From Chloroflexi bacterium GWB2_49_20 (GTDB lineage: Bacteria; Chloroflexota; Anaerolineae; Anaerolineales; Villigracilaceae): a DNA stretch of 64,000 nucleotides. The notes under the pieces are model-generated. The model saw nothing but the letters and a program-made list of their open reading frames with translations. It had not been told where the DNA came from and made no database searches. Within the stretch, counting starts at the first letter, position 1, and the number at the start of each line of letters is the position of its first letter. The stretch is taken from NCBI GenBank assembly GCA_001796335.1, contig MGMF01000023.1:62001-126000 (forward strand), read 5' to 3'. Of the stretch, positions 25,922-32,951 are shown in pieces. The position numbers and the translations under genes were made by a program.

Positions 25922-26713
25922 ATGGCTGTATTAACCGCAAAAAATGTTACCAAACGCTTTGGAGGCTTGGATGCCCTGCAAAAAGTAGATTTGGAAGTAA
26001 AAGAACATGCAATCCAAAGTATTATCGGCCCGAATGGGGCAGGAAAAACCACCTTTTTCAATTGCATTACCGGATTCTACAACCCCGAAGAGGGCGAAAT
26101 TTTACTTGAGAATAAATTAATTACCGGTTTATCCTCAGATCGCGTTACCCGTCTTGGAATTTCAAGAACTTACCAGAACATTCGCTTGTTCAAGAATATG
26201 ACAGCCGTTGAAAACATCTTGGTGGGTATGCACCCTCATCTGAAATCTGGAATGCTTGGTGGGATCTTACGCGATTCCCGTACCAACCGTGATGAAAAGC
26301 AAGCCCTGGATGAAGCCAAACGGATTTTGCAGTTTGTGGGTTTGGCTGGCAAAGGTGATATGATGTCGAAGAACTTGCCTTATGGTGCTCAGCGCAGACT
26401 TGAAATTGGCCGTGCGCTGGCAAATAAACCGAGATTATTGCTGCTCGATGAACCCACCGCAGGCATGAATCCCAGCGAAACCCAGGAGATGACCAACTTC
26501 ATCGGCCATCTCCGTGATTCATTGGGAATAACGATCTTGCTGATTGAACATCAAATGCGTGTTGTGATGGGTATCTCTGAGTTGATTACCGTCCTGGATT
26601 TTGGTCAAAAAATCGCTGAAGGAACTCCGGCTGAAATTCAAAAGAACACCCGTGTGATTGAAGCATATCTGGGTCGCGGTGCAGCCAGCGGTCTTTCTGA
26701 AGCCACAGCCTGA
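25922..26713 (+). CDS. livG: Branched-chain amino-acid-type ABC transporter ATPase 1
   Basis: 263 residues. Walker A GPNGAGKT (36-43), ABC signature in LPYGAQRRLEIGRALA (an atypical YGAQRR in place of SGGQ, as is usual in LivG), Walker B LLLLDEPTAGMNP, and the C-terminal BCA transporter segment ending EGTPAEIQKNTRVIEAYLG. Ten bases after livM, 15 before livF; same operon. Confidence 0.94.
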   Translation: MAVLTAKNVTKRFGGLDALQKVDLEVKEHAIQSIIGPNGAGKTTFFNCITGFYNPEEGEILLENKLITGLSSDRVTRLGISRTYQNIRLFKNMTAVENILVGMHPHLKSGMLGGILRDSRTNRDEKQALDEAKRILQFVGLAGKGDMMSKNLPYGAQRRLEIGRALANKPRLLLLDEPTAGMNPSETQEMTNFIGHLRDSLGITILLIEHQMRVVMGISELITVLDFGQKIAEGTPAEIQKNTRVIEAYLGRGAASGLSEATA

Positions 26714-26728
26714 GTTGGAGATGACATT

Positions 26729-27442
26729 ATGCCGATGCTAGAAGTTGAAAACATTCATTCATACTACGGTAACATTCATGCCTTAAAAGGTGTATCTTTG
26801 ACCGTAGAAAAAGGGGAAATTGTGACCCTGATCGGTGGAAATGGCGCTGGAAAAACAACCACCTTGAGGAGCATCTCCGGGATATTAAAACCTCTTGAAG
26901 GAACTGTGAGGTTCGAAGGAGAAGATTTGGCACCGTTTAAACCGCATAAACTGGTGGCAAAGGGTATTTCCATGGTACCCGAGGGCCGGGGAATATTCTC
27001 CCGCCTGACAGTTGCAGAAAATCTGGATATGGGCGCTTATGTTCGCTCAGACAAAGCCGAAATCAAGGTAGACCTTGAACGGGTTTTTACACTCCTACCT
27101 CGGCTGAAAGAGCGTCGCTCACAGGTCGCTGGAACACTTTCAGGGGGAGAACAGCAAATGCTGGCAACCGGGCGAGCTCTGATGGCACGTCCCCGCTTGC
27201 TTTTGATGGATGAGCCATCCATGGGTTTGGCTCCCGTTCTTGTGGAAAGCATCTTTGAGAAGATCGTTGAAATTAACCAAGAAGGTATGACCATTTTGCT
27301 GGTTGAACAGAACGCCCTTATGGCGCTTAGCATTGCGCATCGCGGTTATGTCATGCAAACAGGTGAAATTGTTTTGCATGATAAGGCTTCTAATTTGCAA
27401 ACCAATAAGATGGTTCAAAAAGCTTACCTCGGTATGGAATAA
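26729..27442 (+). CDS. livF: Branched-chain amino-acid-type ABC transporter ATPase 2
   Basis: 237 residues. Walker A GGNGAGKT (36-43), signature LSGGEQQMLATGRALM, Walker B LLLMDEPSMGLAP, switch His replaced by Gln in VEQN as usual for LivF. GGAG is placed before the ATG. Last gene of the liv operon proper; a hairpin at 27470-27500 follows. Confidence 0.94.
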   Translation: MPMLEVENIHSYYGNIHALKGVSLTVEKGEIVTLIGGNGAGKTTTLRSISGILKPLEGTVRFEGEDLAPFKPHKLVAKGISMVPEGRGIFSRLTVAENLDMGAYVRSDKAEIKVDLERVFTLLPRLKERRSQVAGTLSGGEQQMLATGRALMARPRLLLMDEPSMGLAPVLVESIFEKIVEINQEGMTILLVEQNALMALSIAHRGYVMQTGEIVLHDKASNLQTNKMVQKAYLGME

Positions 27443-27469
27443 TGAAATTCTTTGTATTATAATAACGAA

Positions 27470-27500
27470 GAAACCCGTTTTCTTTTTGAAAACGGGTTTC
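27470..27500 (+). terminator. Hairpin after livF
   Basis: 12-bp perfect stem GAAACCCGTTTT/AAAACGGGTTTC with a 7-base loop. The stem ends in TTTC but there is no long T tract after it, so termination may be partial; the next gene starts 37 bases on. Confidence 0.6.
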
Positions 27501-27537
27501 ATGTCAAATCCACTCATTTTTTGTCAAACAACAAGAT

Positions 27538-28527
27538 ATGAAAATATTAACCGCAAACGATGTAAAAAAAGCATTGCCCATGAAAGATTGTATAGAGGCG
27601 ATGAAACGTGGGTATATTGCCCTGGTAAATGGAAATGCAGAAGTGCCTTTACGCACACGCATACCCATTCCGTCACAGAATGCTGTCAACCTATTTATGC
27701 CAGCATATGTTCAGGATAAAACTGGAAATGCGCTTGCGGTAAAAATTGTATCCCTCTATCCAAACAACCCAGATCTTGGCCTGCCTTTCATTCAGGCAGC
27801 CGTATTAGTTCTGGATCCCGATACAGGAAAACTTGTTGCCTTATTGGAGGGTAGTTCACTAACCGCTATTCGTACTGGTGCAGCTAGTGGTGCTGCCACT
27901 GATTTGCTTTCTAGGGAAGATAGCCGGGTTGCGGCCATTTTTGGAGCTGGCGCTCAGGGACGGACACAACTTGAAGCGATCTGCACTGTAAGAGATATTG
28001 AACAAGTATGGCTATACGATACAGATTCTACTCGTGTTAAATCCTTTATTGAAGAAATATCTGGAAGATCGCCAATACATGCCGATCTTCGCATTGCAGA
28101 AAGTCCCTATCAGGCTGTCTCAAATGCAGACATCATATGCTGTGCCACAACAGCAACCTCCCCTGTTTTTTCGGATGCCGATCTCAAACTTGGCGTTCAT
28201 ATCAATGCCATCGGATCATATACGCCCAATATGCAGGAAATTCCCTCCGCAACAATTGTCAGAGCCTTGGTGGTTGTGGACTCTCTCTCAGCGACACTTG
28301 CTGAAACCGGTGATCTCCTGCGTCCAATTCAAGAAGGCTTGATCGATCAAGACCACATCTACGCAGAATTAGGTGAAATTGCACAAGGAAGTAAACCTGG
28401 GCGCGCTAATGCCGATCAGATCACCTGTTTTAAATCTGTTGGGCTTGCTGTTCAGGATGCTATGGCAGCTCAATTGGCTTTACAAAACTCAGAAAAGATG
28501 GGTTTAGGACAAACAGTCCCATTTTAA
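27538..28527 (+). CDS. Ornithine cyclodeaminase / mu-crystallin family protein
   Basis: 329 residues, NAD(P)-dependent. The Rossmann motif IFGAGAQG is at 134-141; Lys69 (AVKIVSLYP) and Arg112 (LTAIRTGAASG) match substrate-site residues; HINAIGSYTPNMQEI is a family block. Members include ornithine cyclodeaminase, alanine dehydrogenase, ketimine/pyrroline-2-carboxylate reductase and ectoine-utilisation EutC, and I cannot choose among them. It lies between the liv operon and an FAD amine oxidase, which points to imino/amino-acid catabolism. No good Shine-Dalgarno sequence precedes the ATG. Confidence 0.88.
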   Translation: MKILTANDVKKALPMKDCIEAMKRGYIALVNGNAEVPLRTRIPIPSQNAVNLFMPAYVQDKTGNALAVKIVSLYPNNPDLGLPFIQAAVLVLDPDTGKLVALLEGSSLTAIRTGAASGAATDLLSREDSRVAAIFGAGAQGRTQLEAICTVRDIEQVWLYDTDSTRVKSFIEEISGRSPIHADLRIAESPYQAVSNADIICCATTATSPVFSDADLKLGVHINAIGSYTPNMQEIPSATIVRALVVVDSLSATLAETGDLLRPIQEGLIDQDHIYAELGEIAQGSKPGRANADQITCFKSVGLAVQDAMAAQLALQNSEKMGLGQTVPF

Positions 28528-28545
28528 TCCAAGAGGTAATCAATT

Positions 28546-29700
28546 ATGACATTCCCAAAAACAGCAGATATCATCATTATCGGAGGAGGGGTCATGGGCG
28601 CAAGCACAGCCTATCACCTTGCAGCTCGTGGCCAGAAAAATATCCTTTTACTTGAAAAAGAAGAATTTTTTGGCCTGGGTGCGACCGGTCGTTGCGCCGG
28701 AGGAGTTCGATATCAGTTTTCGACTGAGATCAATGTTGAGCTTTCCAAGAAGAGCTTACCCATGTTTGAGAATTTCAAGGCTGAGATTGGACAGGATATA
28801 AATTACCAGAAATGCGGCTACATTTTTGCGCTTACTCGCCCTCAAGATGTGGATTATTTTCGCCATAATATTGAACTTCAACAGCGTTTGGGTGTTCAAA
28901 CAGAATGGTTGACCGGAGATGAAATCAGGCAGCGCTTACCTTTAATGCGTTTTGAAGATGCCATCGCAGGTACATTCAATTCGAAAGATGGATTGGTTGA
29001 CCCAAACAGCGTAGTCATGGGGTATATCAATGCCGGACTACGGATTGGCGTAATAGCAGAAAACAATGTAGAGGTAACAGGGATTCAGGTTGTGAATGGT
29101 GAAGTTCGCGGTGTAATCACCAATCAGGGGATTGTATCATCACCTATCATTGTAAATGCTTGTGGTCCATGGTCCGGCTTGATAGGTGACATGGCTGGTG
29201 TAAAATTACCCATCACCCCATTACGCCGTCAAATGTTGACAACTTCCTCGCTCCCGGAAGTACCAGAAGATTTTCCATTTGTGATTGATTTTGCCCAATC
29301 GCTTTATTTCCATCGCGAGGGAGACGGCTTACTTACAGGGATGTCCAACCAGAATGAGCAATCTGGCTTTGACCAGAATGTAGATGAAGAGTTCGAGCTG
29401 GTAAACTTGGAATCAGCTATTTCTCGTATGCCATTGCTTGAGCATGCTGGTTTGGCTTCTCATTGGGCGGGACTTTATGAAGTCACCCCGGATGCACACC
29501 CGATATTCGGAAGGACTCCAGTCAAAGGTTTCCATGTTGTGGCTGGTTTTTCTGGTCACGGTTTCATGCATGGTCCAATTTCAGGAAAGCTGATGGCTGA
29601 GTATATTCTGGATGGTAAATTTGAAACCCTGGATGTCTCCATGTTAGATTTGGCTCGGTTCGAAGAGGATCGTTTGATAAAAGAATATAATGTTGTTTAA
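28546..29700 (+). CDS. FAD-dependent oxidoreductase, DAO family (sarcosine/glycine/proline oxidase-like)
   Basis: 384 residues. Dinucleotide-binding motif IIIIGGGVMGAS at residues 9-20, then GATGRCAGGVRYQF, and the C-terminal FAD segment TPDAHPIFGR...VVAGFSGHGFMHGPISGKLMAEYI. It oxidises a primary or secondary amine to an imine, the class of product an OCD-family reductase acts on. AGAGGT lies before the ATG, 18 bases after the OCD-family stop. It most resembles the beta subunit of heterotetrameric sarcosine oxidases, but no alpha, gamma or delta genes are present, so a monomeric or homomeric enzyme is more likely. Confidence 0.87.
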   Translation: MTFPKTADIIIIGGGVMGASTAYHLAARGQKNILLLEKEEFFGLGATGRCAGGVRYQFSTEINVELSKKSLPMFENFKAEIGQDINYQKCGYIFALTRPQDVDYFRHNIELQQRLGVQTEWLTGDEIRQRLPLMRFEDAIAGTFNSKDGLVDPNSVVMGYINAGLRIGVIAENNVEVTGIQVVNGEVRGVITNQGIVSSPIIVNACGPWSGLIGDMAGVKLPITPLRRQMLTTSSLPEVPEDFPFVIDFAQSLYFHREGDGLLTGMSNQNEQSGFDQNVDEEFELVNLESAISRMPLLEHAGLASHWAGLYEVTPDAHPIFGRTPVKGFHVVAGFSGHGFMHGPISGKLMAEYILDGKFETLDVSMLDLARFEEDRLIKEYNVV

Positions 29701-29743: not shown

Positions 29744-30907
29744 ATGCCAATTGCTGAGATAATAGCCATAGGCACAGAATTATTACTTGGCGAAATTCCT
29801 GATACCAACACACAATACATTGCCCGAACTATGAGAGAATTGGGTATTAATCTATTTCGAACAACAGTTGTTGGTGACAATAAAGACCGGATAGCTGCGC
29901 TCGTTCGCGAAGCCATGGGACGCTCAGAAATAATAATTACCACCGGAGGGTTGGGACCAACCGTGGATGACCCCACCCGTGAAGCTCTGGCTCAGGCAAC
30001 TGATTCAGACCTTATGTTCCATCCCGAATTGTGGGAAAGCATTTCTAAGCGCTTTATTAAGGCAGGACGCACGCCAGGCGATAATCAAAAACGTCAGGCT
30101 TATATTCCTCATAACGCAATTATTATCAATAACCCTGTAGGAACAGCACCAGCTTTTATTATCATCACAGAAAAGAACGCTGTTATTTCTCTGCCGGGAG
30201 TTCCCGCAGAAATGAAAACGCTCCTGGACATATCGGTTATTCCTTTTCTGCAACAGCACTATAACTTGAAAGAGACCTTGAAGGTTCGCACTCTTCATAC
30301 CAGCGGCGCAGGGGAAGGATGGATTGATGAAAGAATAAGCGATCTTGAAACTCTAGTAAATCCTACTGTTGGATTGGCAGCTCATTCGGGGATGGTGGAT
30401 ATCCGCATCACAGCCAGGGCTGCCAATGAAATTGAAGCAGAAAAACTAATCATTAATCTGGAAACAGAGATCCGCAATCGATTGGGAGATTTTATTTACG
30501 GTTCAGATAAGGCTACCTTAGAAGAAACAGCGCTGGATGCTTCTGCGCAATGTGGATGGAAAGTCTTCTGTGTCGAGGCTGGAACTGCTGGCTTGTTAAA
30601 CCAACGTCTTTCAACATTGCAAAACCCGACTTACCTGGGTGGTTGTCAACTACCCGATAACACGAATTCATTACATGAAAACGTGGAGGTTTTTAGAAAA
30701 GATGGAAAAGCTGATGTAGTTTTAGGATTATCGGTTACCTTAAAAGATAATTCTTCTTTGATCCATCTGGTAATTCTTGCGCCTGAAAAAGATTATGACC
30801 ATCAGGTTAATTATATCGGCCACCCAGACAACGCGCCCATCCTGGGTGTCAATCTTATGCTGGACCGATTACGACGACTGAAAGGGATTGAACCCACATC
30901 CAAATAA
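29744..30907 (+). CDS. cinA: CinA family protein with degenerate C-terminal amidase domain
   Basis: 387 residues. The N-terminal MoCF-like domain is intact: EIIAIGTELLLGEIPDTN and TTGGLGPTVDDPTREAL. The C-terminal nicotinamide-nucleotide amidase (PncC) domain, which should carry AESCTGG, reads VEAGTAG near residues 283-289, so the catalytic serine is missing; later conserved parts of the domain are also hard to see. The N-terminal domain (COG1058) may keep ADP-ribose pyrophosphatase-type activity while the deamidase half is probably dead. It lies 43 bases after the FAD oxidoreductase. Confidence 0.82.
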   Translation: MPIAEIIAIGTELLLGEIPDTNTQYIARTMRELGINLFRTTVVGDNKDRIAALVREAMGRSEIIITTGGLGPTVDDPTREALAQATDSDLMFHPELWESISKRFIKAGRTPGDNQKRQAYIPHNAIIINNPVGTAPAFIIITEKNAVISLPGVPAEMKTLLDISVIPFLQQHYNLKETLKVRTLHTSGAGEGWIDERISDLETLVNPTVGLAAHSGMVDIRITARAANEIEAEKLIINLETEIRNRLGDFIYGSDKATLEETALDASAQCGWKVFCVEAGTAGLLNQRLSTLQNPTYLGGCQLPDNTNSLHENVEVFRKDGKADVVLGLSVTLKDNSSLIHLVILAPEKDYDHQVNYIGHPDNAPILGVNLMLDRLRRLKGIEPTSK

Positions 30908-30956: not shown

Positions 30957-32951
30957 ATGGAACAAACAGTCGATGTATTATTTATAAACGCCCATGTATT
31001 GACCATGGATGAGAATCTGCATCAATACTCACCTGGTGCAGTTGCAGTAAAAGGCGATTCCATTGTTTCTATCGGTTACGAAAAAGATCTCAAGAGTAAA
31101 TTTATCGCCAGCGAAACCATCGACTGTGATGGAAAGATATTGATGCCCGGGTTGATAAATGCCCATACACATGTACCCATGACGCTCTTGAGGGGTTTGG
31201 CAGATGATCTTCGTCTGGATGTCTGGTTGCTTGGGTATATAATGCCCGTGGAACGTGAATTTGTGTCATCGGATTTTGTCCAATTGGGCACGAAATTGGC
31301 TTGTGCTGAGTTGGCTCGATCAGGTGTTACATGCTTTGCCGATATGTATTATTTTGAAGATGATGTTGCCCTGGCAACGTCACAAGCCGGTTTGCGGGCA
31401 GTATGCTCACAAACAGTCCTGAAATTCCCCACACCAGATGCAAAATCATACGAAGATTCACTGGCTTATGCGCGTGATTTTATCCGTCGCTGGAAAGGGC
31501 ATCCATTAATCGAACCTTCGGTAGCTCCACATGCACCTTATACTTGTACGAACGAGATTCTCCAGGCAACCTCTCTATTGGCACAGGAATTTGATGTCCC
31601 ACTCCATACTCATTTGTCAGAGACTGTTCTCGAAGTTGAAAACATACGCAGAGAAACCGGTATGCCGGTTATTCCTTATGTAAAGAAACAAGGACTTTTT
31701 GATGCAAAAGTACTGGCAGCCCATTGCGTCCACATAGACCCGGGAGAAATTCGAACTCTGGCGCACGCAGGTGCTGGAATTGCTCACAACCCATCTTCAA
31801 ATCTAAAACTTGGTTCTGGTATTGCACCAGTATTACAGATGCTGGAAGCCGGTCTCAATGTAGGAATAGGGACAGATGGTCCTGCTTCAAATAACGACTT
31901 GGATATGTTTGAAGAAGTGCGTCTGACCGCTTTTCTTGCAAAAGGAACCTGTGGTGATCCAACTGTCATCCCTGCTGCAACCGCTCTAACAATGGCAACC
32001 CGCCTCGGCGCGAAAGCCATGCACCTCGGGCACTTGACCGGATCCCTGGAGCCTGGCAAACGGGCTGACTTGATCTTGATAGATATCAATCCCATTCACA
32101 ATTCCCCCCGCTTTAATCGAGAACCCGATAATGCTTATTCCAGTATTGTTTATGCAGCAAAATCAACAGATGTTACGGACGTGATGGTTAACGGGAACTG
32201 GGTTTTAAGAAACCGCAATCTTCTAACTCTTGACCAGAAAGACCTTTTATACCATGCTGCCCAATATGCTAAAAGAATAGATTCATTCTTGATCCAGCGC
32301 GAACAATCTGTTTACTCCAAATTAATTGCACTGGGTGGATCAAGCGAATCTGAATCTTTTGAAATACAAATCAAGGTTAAAATTGCTGATAATTCTGCAA
32401 CCCTAAAAGCACTTCAAAACTCGCAAATTGACATCCTTTACCATAAACATTACCATCAACACGATGCTTATTTTATCTTCTCCGATCCATCCCAGGGCAG
32501 ACTGCGCTACCGGGAGGATGAGTTCATTGATGAAAAGGGGCAAATTATTAATGTTCGCTCCCGTTTAACCTTGCTTGGACCAGCCCGTGAGAGCAATTTA
32601 AAAAACGACGTATTGCTTTCCCGCAGCCGGTATCTTGCACCTGCCACCAATAGTTTAAGGTTTTATCGGGAATATTTTAAACCTTCATCAGAAATTTTAG
32701 TCGATAAGGATCGTTTACGTTGGTTGGTCAAGTACAAAAACACGGAGTTTTACATTAACCTGGATACCTTTGAAAAACCTGCCTTGGGCATTTTTCTGGA
32801 AATTAAAAGTCGCACCTGGAGCTTAAGAGATGCTGAAAACAAGGCTCGCCTGACCAGTGAACTTATTACTTTGCTGGAAGGTTCGTTGGATAAGACAATT
32901 ACTCAGGATTATATAGAAGTTATACAGGATCAAAACACTGGGAAACCGTAG
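30957..32951 (+). CDS. MTA/SAH-deaminase-like amidohydrolase fused to a CYTH domain
   Basis: 664 residues. Residues 1-445 are an amidohydrolase of the 5'-methylthioadenosine/S-adenosylhomocysteine deaminase type: HTH at 70-72, APHAPYT (His192), HTHLSET (218-223), AAHCVH, GTDGPASNNDLDMFEE with Asp307, and TGSLEPGKRADLILID. Residues about 465-660 look like a CYTH triphosphate-tunnel domain: FEIQIKVKI (ExQxK rather than ExExK), GRLRYRED, VRSRLTLLGP, and a C-terminal INLD...LGIFLEIKSR block. The C-terminal half is in one frame with no stop. The N-terminal half should deaminate adenine nucleosides; the CYTH half might bind or hydrolyse a phosphorylated or triphosphorylated compound, but two tunnel acids are replaced. 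Fusion intent unknown. Confidence 0.85.
   Translation: MEQTVDVLFINAHVLTMDENLHQYSPGAVAVKGDSIVSIGYEKDLKSKFIASETIDCDGKILMPGLINAHTHVPMTLLRGLADDLRLDVWLLGYIMPVEREFVSSDFVQLGTKLACAELARSGVTCFADMYYFEDDVALATSQAGLRAVCSQTVLKFPTPDAKSYEDSLAYARDFIRRWKGHPLIEPSVAPHAPYTCTNEILQATSLLAQEFDVPLHTHLSETVLEVENIRRETGMPVIPYVKKQGLFDAKVLAAHCVHIDPGEIRTLAHAGAGIAHNPSSNLKLGSGIAPVLQMLEAGLNVGIGTDGPASNNDLDMFEEVRLTAFLAKGTCGDPTVIPAATALTMATRLGAKAMHLGHLTGSLEPGKRADLILIDINPIHNSPRFNREPDNAYSSIVYAAKSTDVTDVMVNGNWVLRNRNLLTLDQKDLLYHAAQYAKRIDSFLIQREQSVYSKLIALGGSSESESFEIQIKVKIADNSATLKALQNSQIDILYHKHYHQHDAYFIFSDPSQGRLRYREDEFIDEKGQIINVRSRLTLLGPARESNLKNDVLLSRSRYLAPATNSLRFYREYFKPSSEILVDKDRLRWLVKYKNTEFYINLDTFEKPALGIFLEIKSRTWSLRDAENKARLTSELITLLEGSLDKTITQDYIEVIQDQNTGKP

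Follow-up and report, generated by a model that had tools for sequence, protein, structure and literature searches.

A conserved fusion of a nucleoside deaminase-type amidohydrolase and a CYTH-fold tunnel domain in Chloroflexota

What would a triphosphate tunnel do when joined to an enzyme that deaminates adenine nucleosides? The question is raised by a gene at 30957..32951 (+) of a 64,000-nucleotide window of Chloroflexi bacterium GWB2_49_20 (contig MGMF01000023.1, positions 62,001 to 126,000), the window being the whole stretch of DNA analysed; all features of the gene given below lie on its plus strand. The gene is one open frame with its ATG at 30957 and its stop at 32949-32951, and encodes a protein of 664 residues. 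Many stops interrupt the opposite-strand frame shown, and the longest open reading frame listed inside the gene has 103 residues. A preliminary description made from the sequence alone had seen here an amidohydrolase joined in a single frame to a CYTH domain, and this is borne out by the genomes of the order, 40 of 41 of which keep the whole fusion. Residues 1-441 (30957..32279) form an amidohydrolase of the methylthioadenosine (MTA)/S-adenosylhomocysteine (SAH)/adenosine deaminase type, residues 442-462 (32280..32342) a linker in which F444, R448, E449 and K455 are present in 117/117 aligned rows, and residues 463-660 (32343..32936) a CYTH or triphosphate-tunnel-fold domain. The fusion is real and conserved, both of its domains are of known kinds, and its tunnel departs from the catalytic CYTH enzymes at fixed positions. 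Our explanation, to which we give an even chance, is that an adenine-nucleoside deaminase carries a triphosphate-binding, probably non-hydrolysing tunnel as a regulatory ligand sensor.

The tunnel fold and its relatives

The C-terminal half was modelled from an alignment in which 76 homologues accompany the window protein (80 loci taken, less four cut by contig ends). The model is an eight-stranded tunnel with a C-terminal helix, with a mean predicted local distance difference test score (pLDDT) of 87 and a predicted template modelling score (pTM) of 0.82. The fold of this half had been set beforehand as the point on which the CYTH assignment could fail, and with an eight-stranded tunnel predicted the assignment stands. 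Foldseek matched the model to CyaB of Yersinia pestis, SaTTM and PH1819 (2fjt, 7ns9 and 2een; E ~1e-7, probability 1.00), and VIA-align superposed it on 2een_A with Z 17.7 (2.5 Å over 170 residues) and on 7ns9 with Z 16.6 (2.4 Å over 169). The relation to solved proteins was found by fold only, a PDB sequence search with the C-terminal domain having returned no match. The window copy lies below the cut-offs of Pfam CYTH (PF01928; 14.2 bits in the whole protein and 17.9 alone, against 23.2) and of cyaB TIGR00318 (22 bits against 57.95). Of 30 relatives, 17 matched CYTH (best 5.3e-8) and 26 matched TIGR00318 (best 1.5e-7), and the other families in the CYTH and cyaB listings matched one to four of these relatives each, at E 0.01 or worse at best. 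When 25 genomes were searched, four fusion loci (G005, G006, G007 and G025) scored above the CYTH cut-off. The C-terminal half should be described as a CYTH-fold domain and should not be filed as a CYTH enzyme.

Multidomain CYTH proteins join the tunnel to a nucleotide- or phosphate-handling enzyme, as the fusion does; the kinase-tunnel structure of AtTTM1 (7z67) is an example. The known CYTH partners include CHAD, HD, exopolyphosphatase and nucleotidyl kinase, and the available part of PMC8233210 names no amidohydrolase. The preliminary description was aware of no account of this fusion, and we found none in one open-access library of papers; that search did not extend to subscription papers or domain-architecture databases, and a database entry may well exist.

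The tunnel site and its possible role

Conservation was counted over an alignment of 117 rows, representing 114 distinct proteins with a lowest identity of 42.5%; some columns have a residue in 116 of the rows. Across the 114 proteins the C-terminal half has 23 invariant residues, and E469, Q471, K473, D503, Y505, R517, R519, K584, R586, R588, E615 and K617 are unchanged in all of them. Both departures first noted in the window copy, ExQxK for the ExExK hallmark and EIK for EIE, are therefore family-wide: E469-x-Q471-x-K473 (32361..32375) and E615-x-K617 (32799..32807) are each invariant in 114/114.

Two profile comparisons, each against separate CYTH proteins from this order, were used to map the residues. 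Sixteen proteins of ExExK type give a weak alignment (E 4e-4, probability 34%), and three of NxExK type a better one (E 5.6e-6, probability 86%). In both, the second Glu and the Lys of ExExK align with Q471 and K473, the two glutamates of ExE with E615 and K617, the KxR of other CYTH proteins with K584 and R586, and the end-helix tyrosine with Y652; opposite E469 stands Glu in the ExExK-type alignment and Asn in the NxExK-type one. D503-x-Y505 (32463..32471; 117/117 rows) is placed by the profile alignments at the DxY position of SaTTM, a motif taken from PMC8233210. R517-x-R519 (32505..32513; 117/117 rows) is taken as the phosphate-binding RxR from the NxExK-type alignment and the strand order (strand 515-524). 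K584-x-R586-x-R588 (32706..32720) is also present in 117/117 rows, and Y652 (32910..32912), in the last or plug helix, is Tyr in 114 of 117. Two apparent peculiarities of the fusion were left unused: an acidic-to-Arg change at R558, seen in the ExExK-type alignment, was not borne out by the better NxExK-type one, and the loss of the TxK lysine is common to the NxExK type.

In tunnel enzymes the invariant Glu of the ExE region holds metal 1 together with the substrate, and the water-activating metal 2 is held by three glutamates, two from ExExK and the second of ExE (PMC4641920). By homology, the fused tunnel would keep the metal-1 Glu and the phosphate-gripping residues, with Gln and Lys replacing two of the three metal-2 glutamates. 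It thus has in common with SaTTM, AtTTM3, ygiF and ThTPase the eight-stranded tunnel with its end helix, the metal-1 Glu and KxR, together with DxY and RxR by the better alignment, and differs from these triphosphate tunnel metalloenzymes in its ExQxK and ExK, in which two of the three metal-2 glutamates are replaced in 114/114 proteins. A partial parallel is the tunnel of the polyphosphate polymerase Vtc4p, which also has metal site 1 without site 2 and has basic residues in the place of the acidic patch (PMC4641920). Vtc4p is not fused to a deaminase, and its catalytic Lys458 seems to correspond in position to Y652, as mapped only via Y168 of SaTTM and K200 of AtTTM3 as given in the papers.

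These features suggest a mechanism. The metal-dependent deaminase half would deaminate an adenine nucleoside. The tunnel would bind a magnesium-complexed, triphosphate-like anion (adenosine triphosphate (ATP), inorganic tripolyphosphate (PPPi) or polyphosphate) through E615 and the Arg and Lys residues. The bound anion would stay unsplit, the catalytic second metal being deprived of two of its three glutamates (Q471, K617), and the ligand-filled tunnel would tune the deaminase. We infer ligand binding, the lack of hydrolysis and the regulation, as well as the residue roles and the substrate; binding without splitting is suggested because the metal-1 Glu and the basic residues are kept and two of the three metal-2 glutamates are lost. 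A ligand sensor is favoured over a triphosphate-degrading enzyme, the alternative raised in the preliminary description, because two of the three ligands of the catalytic metal appear replaced while the substrate-metal Glu and the basic residues stay.

Several observations weigh against a ligand sensor. The residue mapping derives from just the two profile alignments and their stated probabilities, and these disagree on RxR (R517/R519 as against a site near R534) and on the strand of R556/R558. The fusion is not alone in departing from the hallmark: among 20 separate CYTH loci of the order, three show NxExK beside an intact ExE, and the fused domain gives a better alignment with this type than with the ExExK type. 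The gene neighbourhood shows no link to phosphate or S-adenosylmethionine (SAM) metabolism. An altered site may moreover still work, as in plant AtTTM1/2, which like the fusion are without ExExK and ExE, and yet AtTTM2 splits pyrophosphate (PMC8233210).

This last point leads to the strongest alternative, which we consider doubtful although well worth weighing: a bifunctional enzyme in which the tunnel is still catalytic beside the deaminase, with altered metal chemistry directed for instance at pyrophosphate or another phosphoanhydride. The 23 invariant residues amount to conservation as strong as expected for an enzyme, and AtTTM1/2-type proteins without ExExK and ExE are still described as pyrophosphatases (PMC8233210). 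The replacement of two of the three site-2 glutamates argues the other way, as do mutations of Glu-2, Glu-4 or Glu-169 in AtTTM3 or of Glu-6 or Glu-160 in ygiF, which strongly lower activity (PMC4641920).

It is improbable that the tunnel is solely a structural or oligomerisation module that binds no ligand. The Mediator subunit Med18 is not known to be an enzyme, and Mediator chains do share the tunnel fold (3c0t_A of Med8C/18, Z 11.8; 2hzm_B of Med18/20, Z 11.7), but most invariant residues of the C-terminal half carry a charge, and the invariant set aligns with the tunnel-lining residues of enzymes.

Much less probable again is a link to cyclic adenosine monophosphate (cAMP), whereby a class IV adenylyl cyclase tunnel would feed, or be fed by, the deaminase. 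The fold is that of CyaB, CyaB structures (2fjt, 3n0z) are among the top matches, and most fusion members match the curated family TIGR00318. Cyclases, however, have an HF motif four residues before ExExK, have lost the first Arg of RxR and have Ala as the second residue of ExE (PMC8233210). In the fusion the HF motif is absent at 463-464 (position 464 is E in 88 rows, Q in 19, R in 6, and otherwise A, L or P, in the 116 of 117 rows with a residue), the first Arg is retained provided that R517 represents it, and Lys stands where CyaB has Ala. Synthesis of cAMP by the tunnel, one of the activities the preliminary description associated with CYTH proteins, is disfavoured by the missing HF motif. 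The W/YxRxR feature of thiamine triphosphatase is likewise missing from the window copy, which has R515; over the alignment this position is R in 75, Y in 12 and W in 11 of 117 rows, and 23 members would pass on that feature alone.

The separate CYTH proteins of the same genomes bear on what the fused tunnel has to do. A separate CYTH match over the cut-off occurs in 22 of 25 relatives, and the fused tunnel is for that reason not the sole candidate for the triphosphatase of the cell. Of the 20 such loci examined, the 16 aligned ones have invariant ExExK and ExE glutamates; the remaining four comprise the three NxExK loci and one locus (L204, 161 residues) that reads ExExK by eye. The NxExK proteins (L199, L201 and L203, at G012:C13, G003:C61 and G008:C176) have PH1012 as their nearest solved structure (2dc4, 1.5e-14) and are unfused in the frames read. 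They are the best profile match to the fused tunnel and also depart from ExExK, with Asn for the first Glu and the second Glu kept, and their activity may differ as well.

The ligand sensor can be given a more specific history, offered tentatively as a conjecture: a single time, within Chloroflexota, a tunnel of the triphosphatase type became a sensor that binds ATP, tripolyphosphate or polyphosphate without hydrolysing it, and this sensor switches the nucleoside deaminase. If true, the breakdown or salvage of purine nucleosides would be set directly by the energy or polyphosphate state of the cell. An attractive ligand would then be the tripolyphosphate that SAM synthetase produces, the deaminase half having its nearest relatives among enzymes that act on products of SAM chemistry. 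Tunnel domains are known mainly as enzymes, and a conserved tunnel with a rearranged metal site on a metabolic enzyme would be a case of a triphosphate or polyphosphate receptor. The substitution of Gln and Lys for two site-2 glutamates also provides a natural variant for probing the two-metal mechanism.

The deaminase half and its substrate

The N-terminal half matches PF01979 (Amidohydro_1) over residues 61-416 at 1.3e-70, and the whole-protein model (pLDDT 88.5, pTM 0.87) is uncertain in the loops at 82-89 and 309-313. Foldseek places this half with 3lnp, 4dzh, 4f0r, 4dyk, 4f0s and 4gbd, the top seven chains having template modelling (TM) scores of 0.94-0.96 on the target at 35-39% identity; TM0936 follows at 0.91-0.92 and 32% identity. 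The closest solved folds are thus MTA/adenosine deaminases, one of which holds methylthio-coformycin and one inosine. No NCBIfam equivalog cut-off for the named deaminases is reached, the best being NF006549 (458.8 bits against 540), with NF012037 at 317.6 against 779.

The metal ligands, assigned by homology, are H70-x-H72 (31164..31172), H219, which stands with the general-base-type E222 (31611..31622), and D307 (31875..31877), with His192 (31530..31532) and His256 (31722..31724) as further active-site residues. All seven residues are kept in 116/116 rows with a residue there, because of which the deaminase half should be active. The metal ligands had been named correctly in the preliminary description as HTH 70-72, His192 and Asp307, except that the second HTH lies at 217-219 and not at 218-220; of its two histidines only His219 is conserved, His217 being present in 91 of 117 rows.

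Fold, metal ligands and catalytic residues are common to the fusion and to the MTA/SAH/adenosine deaminases 4f0r, 4gbd, 4dzh, 3lnp and TM0936, and the fusion alone adds the C-terminal tunnel. It differs from them further at three positions. Position 86 is R, Q or K in the fusion, P or A in the five solved deaminases shown and S in TM0936; position 88 is D in the fusion, M in those five and E in TM0936. Position 156 (31422..31424) is K in 103 and R in 7 of 116 rows, where the solved MTA/SAH deaminases shown have an acidic residue, D or E (D140 in TM0936). Lys or Arg at this position occurs in none of 40 other amidohydrolases in one alignment and in 2 of 20 in a cruder one. K156 is probably near the pocket, since it directly follows the third barrel strand (147-154 in the model), and positions 86, 88 and 156 are a lead as substrate determinants.

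As substrate of the fusion, adenosine, 5'-deoxyadenosine or MTA is likely, or else a related compound that carries charge on its 5' side. The usual MTA and SAH routes are mostly present in the relatives, and once they are considered adenosine, 5'-deoxyadenosine or an unnamed adenine compound becomes likelier. MTA phosphorylase is over the cut-off in 20 and MtnA in 19 of 25 relatives, which led us to reject missing MTA salvage as the explanation of the fusion; SAH hydrolase matches occur in 24 of the 25.

SAH itself is unlikely as the main substrate. The position of TM0936 Arg136, which we take to hold the SAH carboxylate, is Q in 100 and E in 16 of 116 fusions. The SAH hydrolase homologues have HxTxE or HxTxQ at 50/50 loci from 48 genomes (41 loci from fusion-bearing genomes, 30 of the 50 being the best-scoring ones of the phylum search), and this is the SAH-preferring motif of SAH hydrolases (PMC10978960). 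The HxExK of S-inosylhomocysteine (SIH) hydrolase was found at 0/50 of these loci, second copies in some genomes not having been read. That the fusion serves as the SAH deaminase of a DadD/SIH-hydrolase pathway, as its MTA/SAH deaminase-type N-terminal half might suggest, is on both these counts highly unlikely.

Three side observations concern these families. HxTxQ is found at 5 of the 50 SAH hydrolase loci (L256 and L259-L262), in longer frames of 475-541 residues, and HxTxE at the other 45, and the enzyme forms two lineages within the phylum. The genes mtnA and SAH hydrolase lie ~1.2 kilobases (kb) apart at G000:C10:16173-19557 (the SAH hydrolase being L239) and likewise in G005, G010, G012 and G014; the pair is ~8 kb from the fusion in G010 and on another contig in the genome of the window. 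In one phylum genome, G250 (L219, L220 and L230), eight amidohydrolase matches reach E 1e-60 or better, and a first look gave 46 candidates.

Spread, origin and surroundings

All 41 genomes searched among the relatives, the window's own and those of its family and order, have a match; in the single one without the whole fusion in one piece (G008) it is split over two contigs. The fusion brings an unassigned deaminase, present in 40 of 41 genomes of the order, within reach of direct assay. A C-domain profile matched 115 of 199 class genomes and 40 of 201 phylum genomes, 18 of the latter lying outside the class in four families. The match stands in a frame of at least 600 residues in 111 of the 115 and 39 of the 40. 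The class exceptions are G207 (581 residues), G061 (572), G147 (507) and G168 (100) and the phylum exception is G361 (347 residues, cut by the contig end); several short pieces start at base 1-3 of a contig. No convincing standalone C-domain was found in the class and phylum searches, G168 and G207:C248 not having been read, so that a copy there is possible.

The N-terminal domain tells the same story. At E 1e-60 or better and with identities of at least 49%, the phylum sample yields exactly the same 40 genomes; the frame has 659-824 residues in 39 of them and is cut in one (G361), and all other N-domain matches listed in the 201 genomes have 41% identity or less. Among the loci read more widely, 39 of 40 are single-frame fusions and the remaining one (L140) is cut by a contig end. 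In a tree, the N-domains of 23 of the 41 fusions at hand form one clade against 40 other phylum amidohydrolases with support 1.0, so that among the sequences sampled they stand apart as a clade of their own, and the distances of the N- and C-terminal halves correlate (r 0.84; 780 pairs of 40 proteins). Most likely the fusion formed once within Chloroflexota and has been inherited since.

The chromosomes sampled for the fusion are those of Chloroflexota, and spread in the chromosomes of other phyla lies outside that sample. In a contig scan the best 80 of at least 563 matches, mostly metagenome assemblies, are titled Anaerolineales, Anaerolineae, Anaerolineaceae, Anaerolinea, Chloroflexi/Chloroflexota or Desulfolinea. 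Among plasmid records 946 hold the deaminase half, none of them covering 80% of the protein in one place, and the C-terminal half had no match there; viral contigs gave 43 pattern matches with no relative among them. Three long frames (L234-L236) considered as other deaminase fusions were set aside as seeming read-through of upstream sequence, judged by eye only.

The surroundings of the gene differ between families and carry no weight here as functional evidence. At the window locus the gene directly before the fusion on its strand, at 29744-30907, is CinA-like by eye, and a CinA-like gene of this cluster is found upstream, again on the same strand, in 61 of 115 located loci (121 given, some genomes twice). 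In those 115 loci there is also an M14-peptidase-like gene in 39 and a membrane protein in 38, named by eye, and loci of other families have different neighbours, such as a CoaE-like gene at +1 in four. Before the CinA-like gene in the window, 25922-29700 on the same strand holds, by eye, two ATP-binding cassette (ABC) ATPases of the branched-chain-amino-acid type together with ornithine-cyclodeaminase-like and flavin adenine dinucleotide (FAD)-oxidoreductase-like genes.

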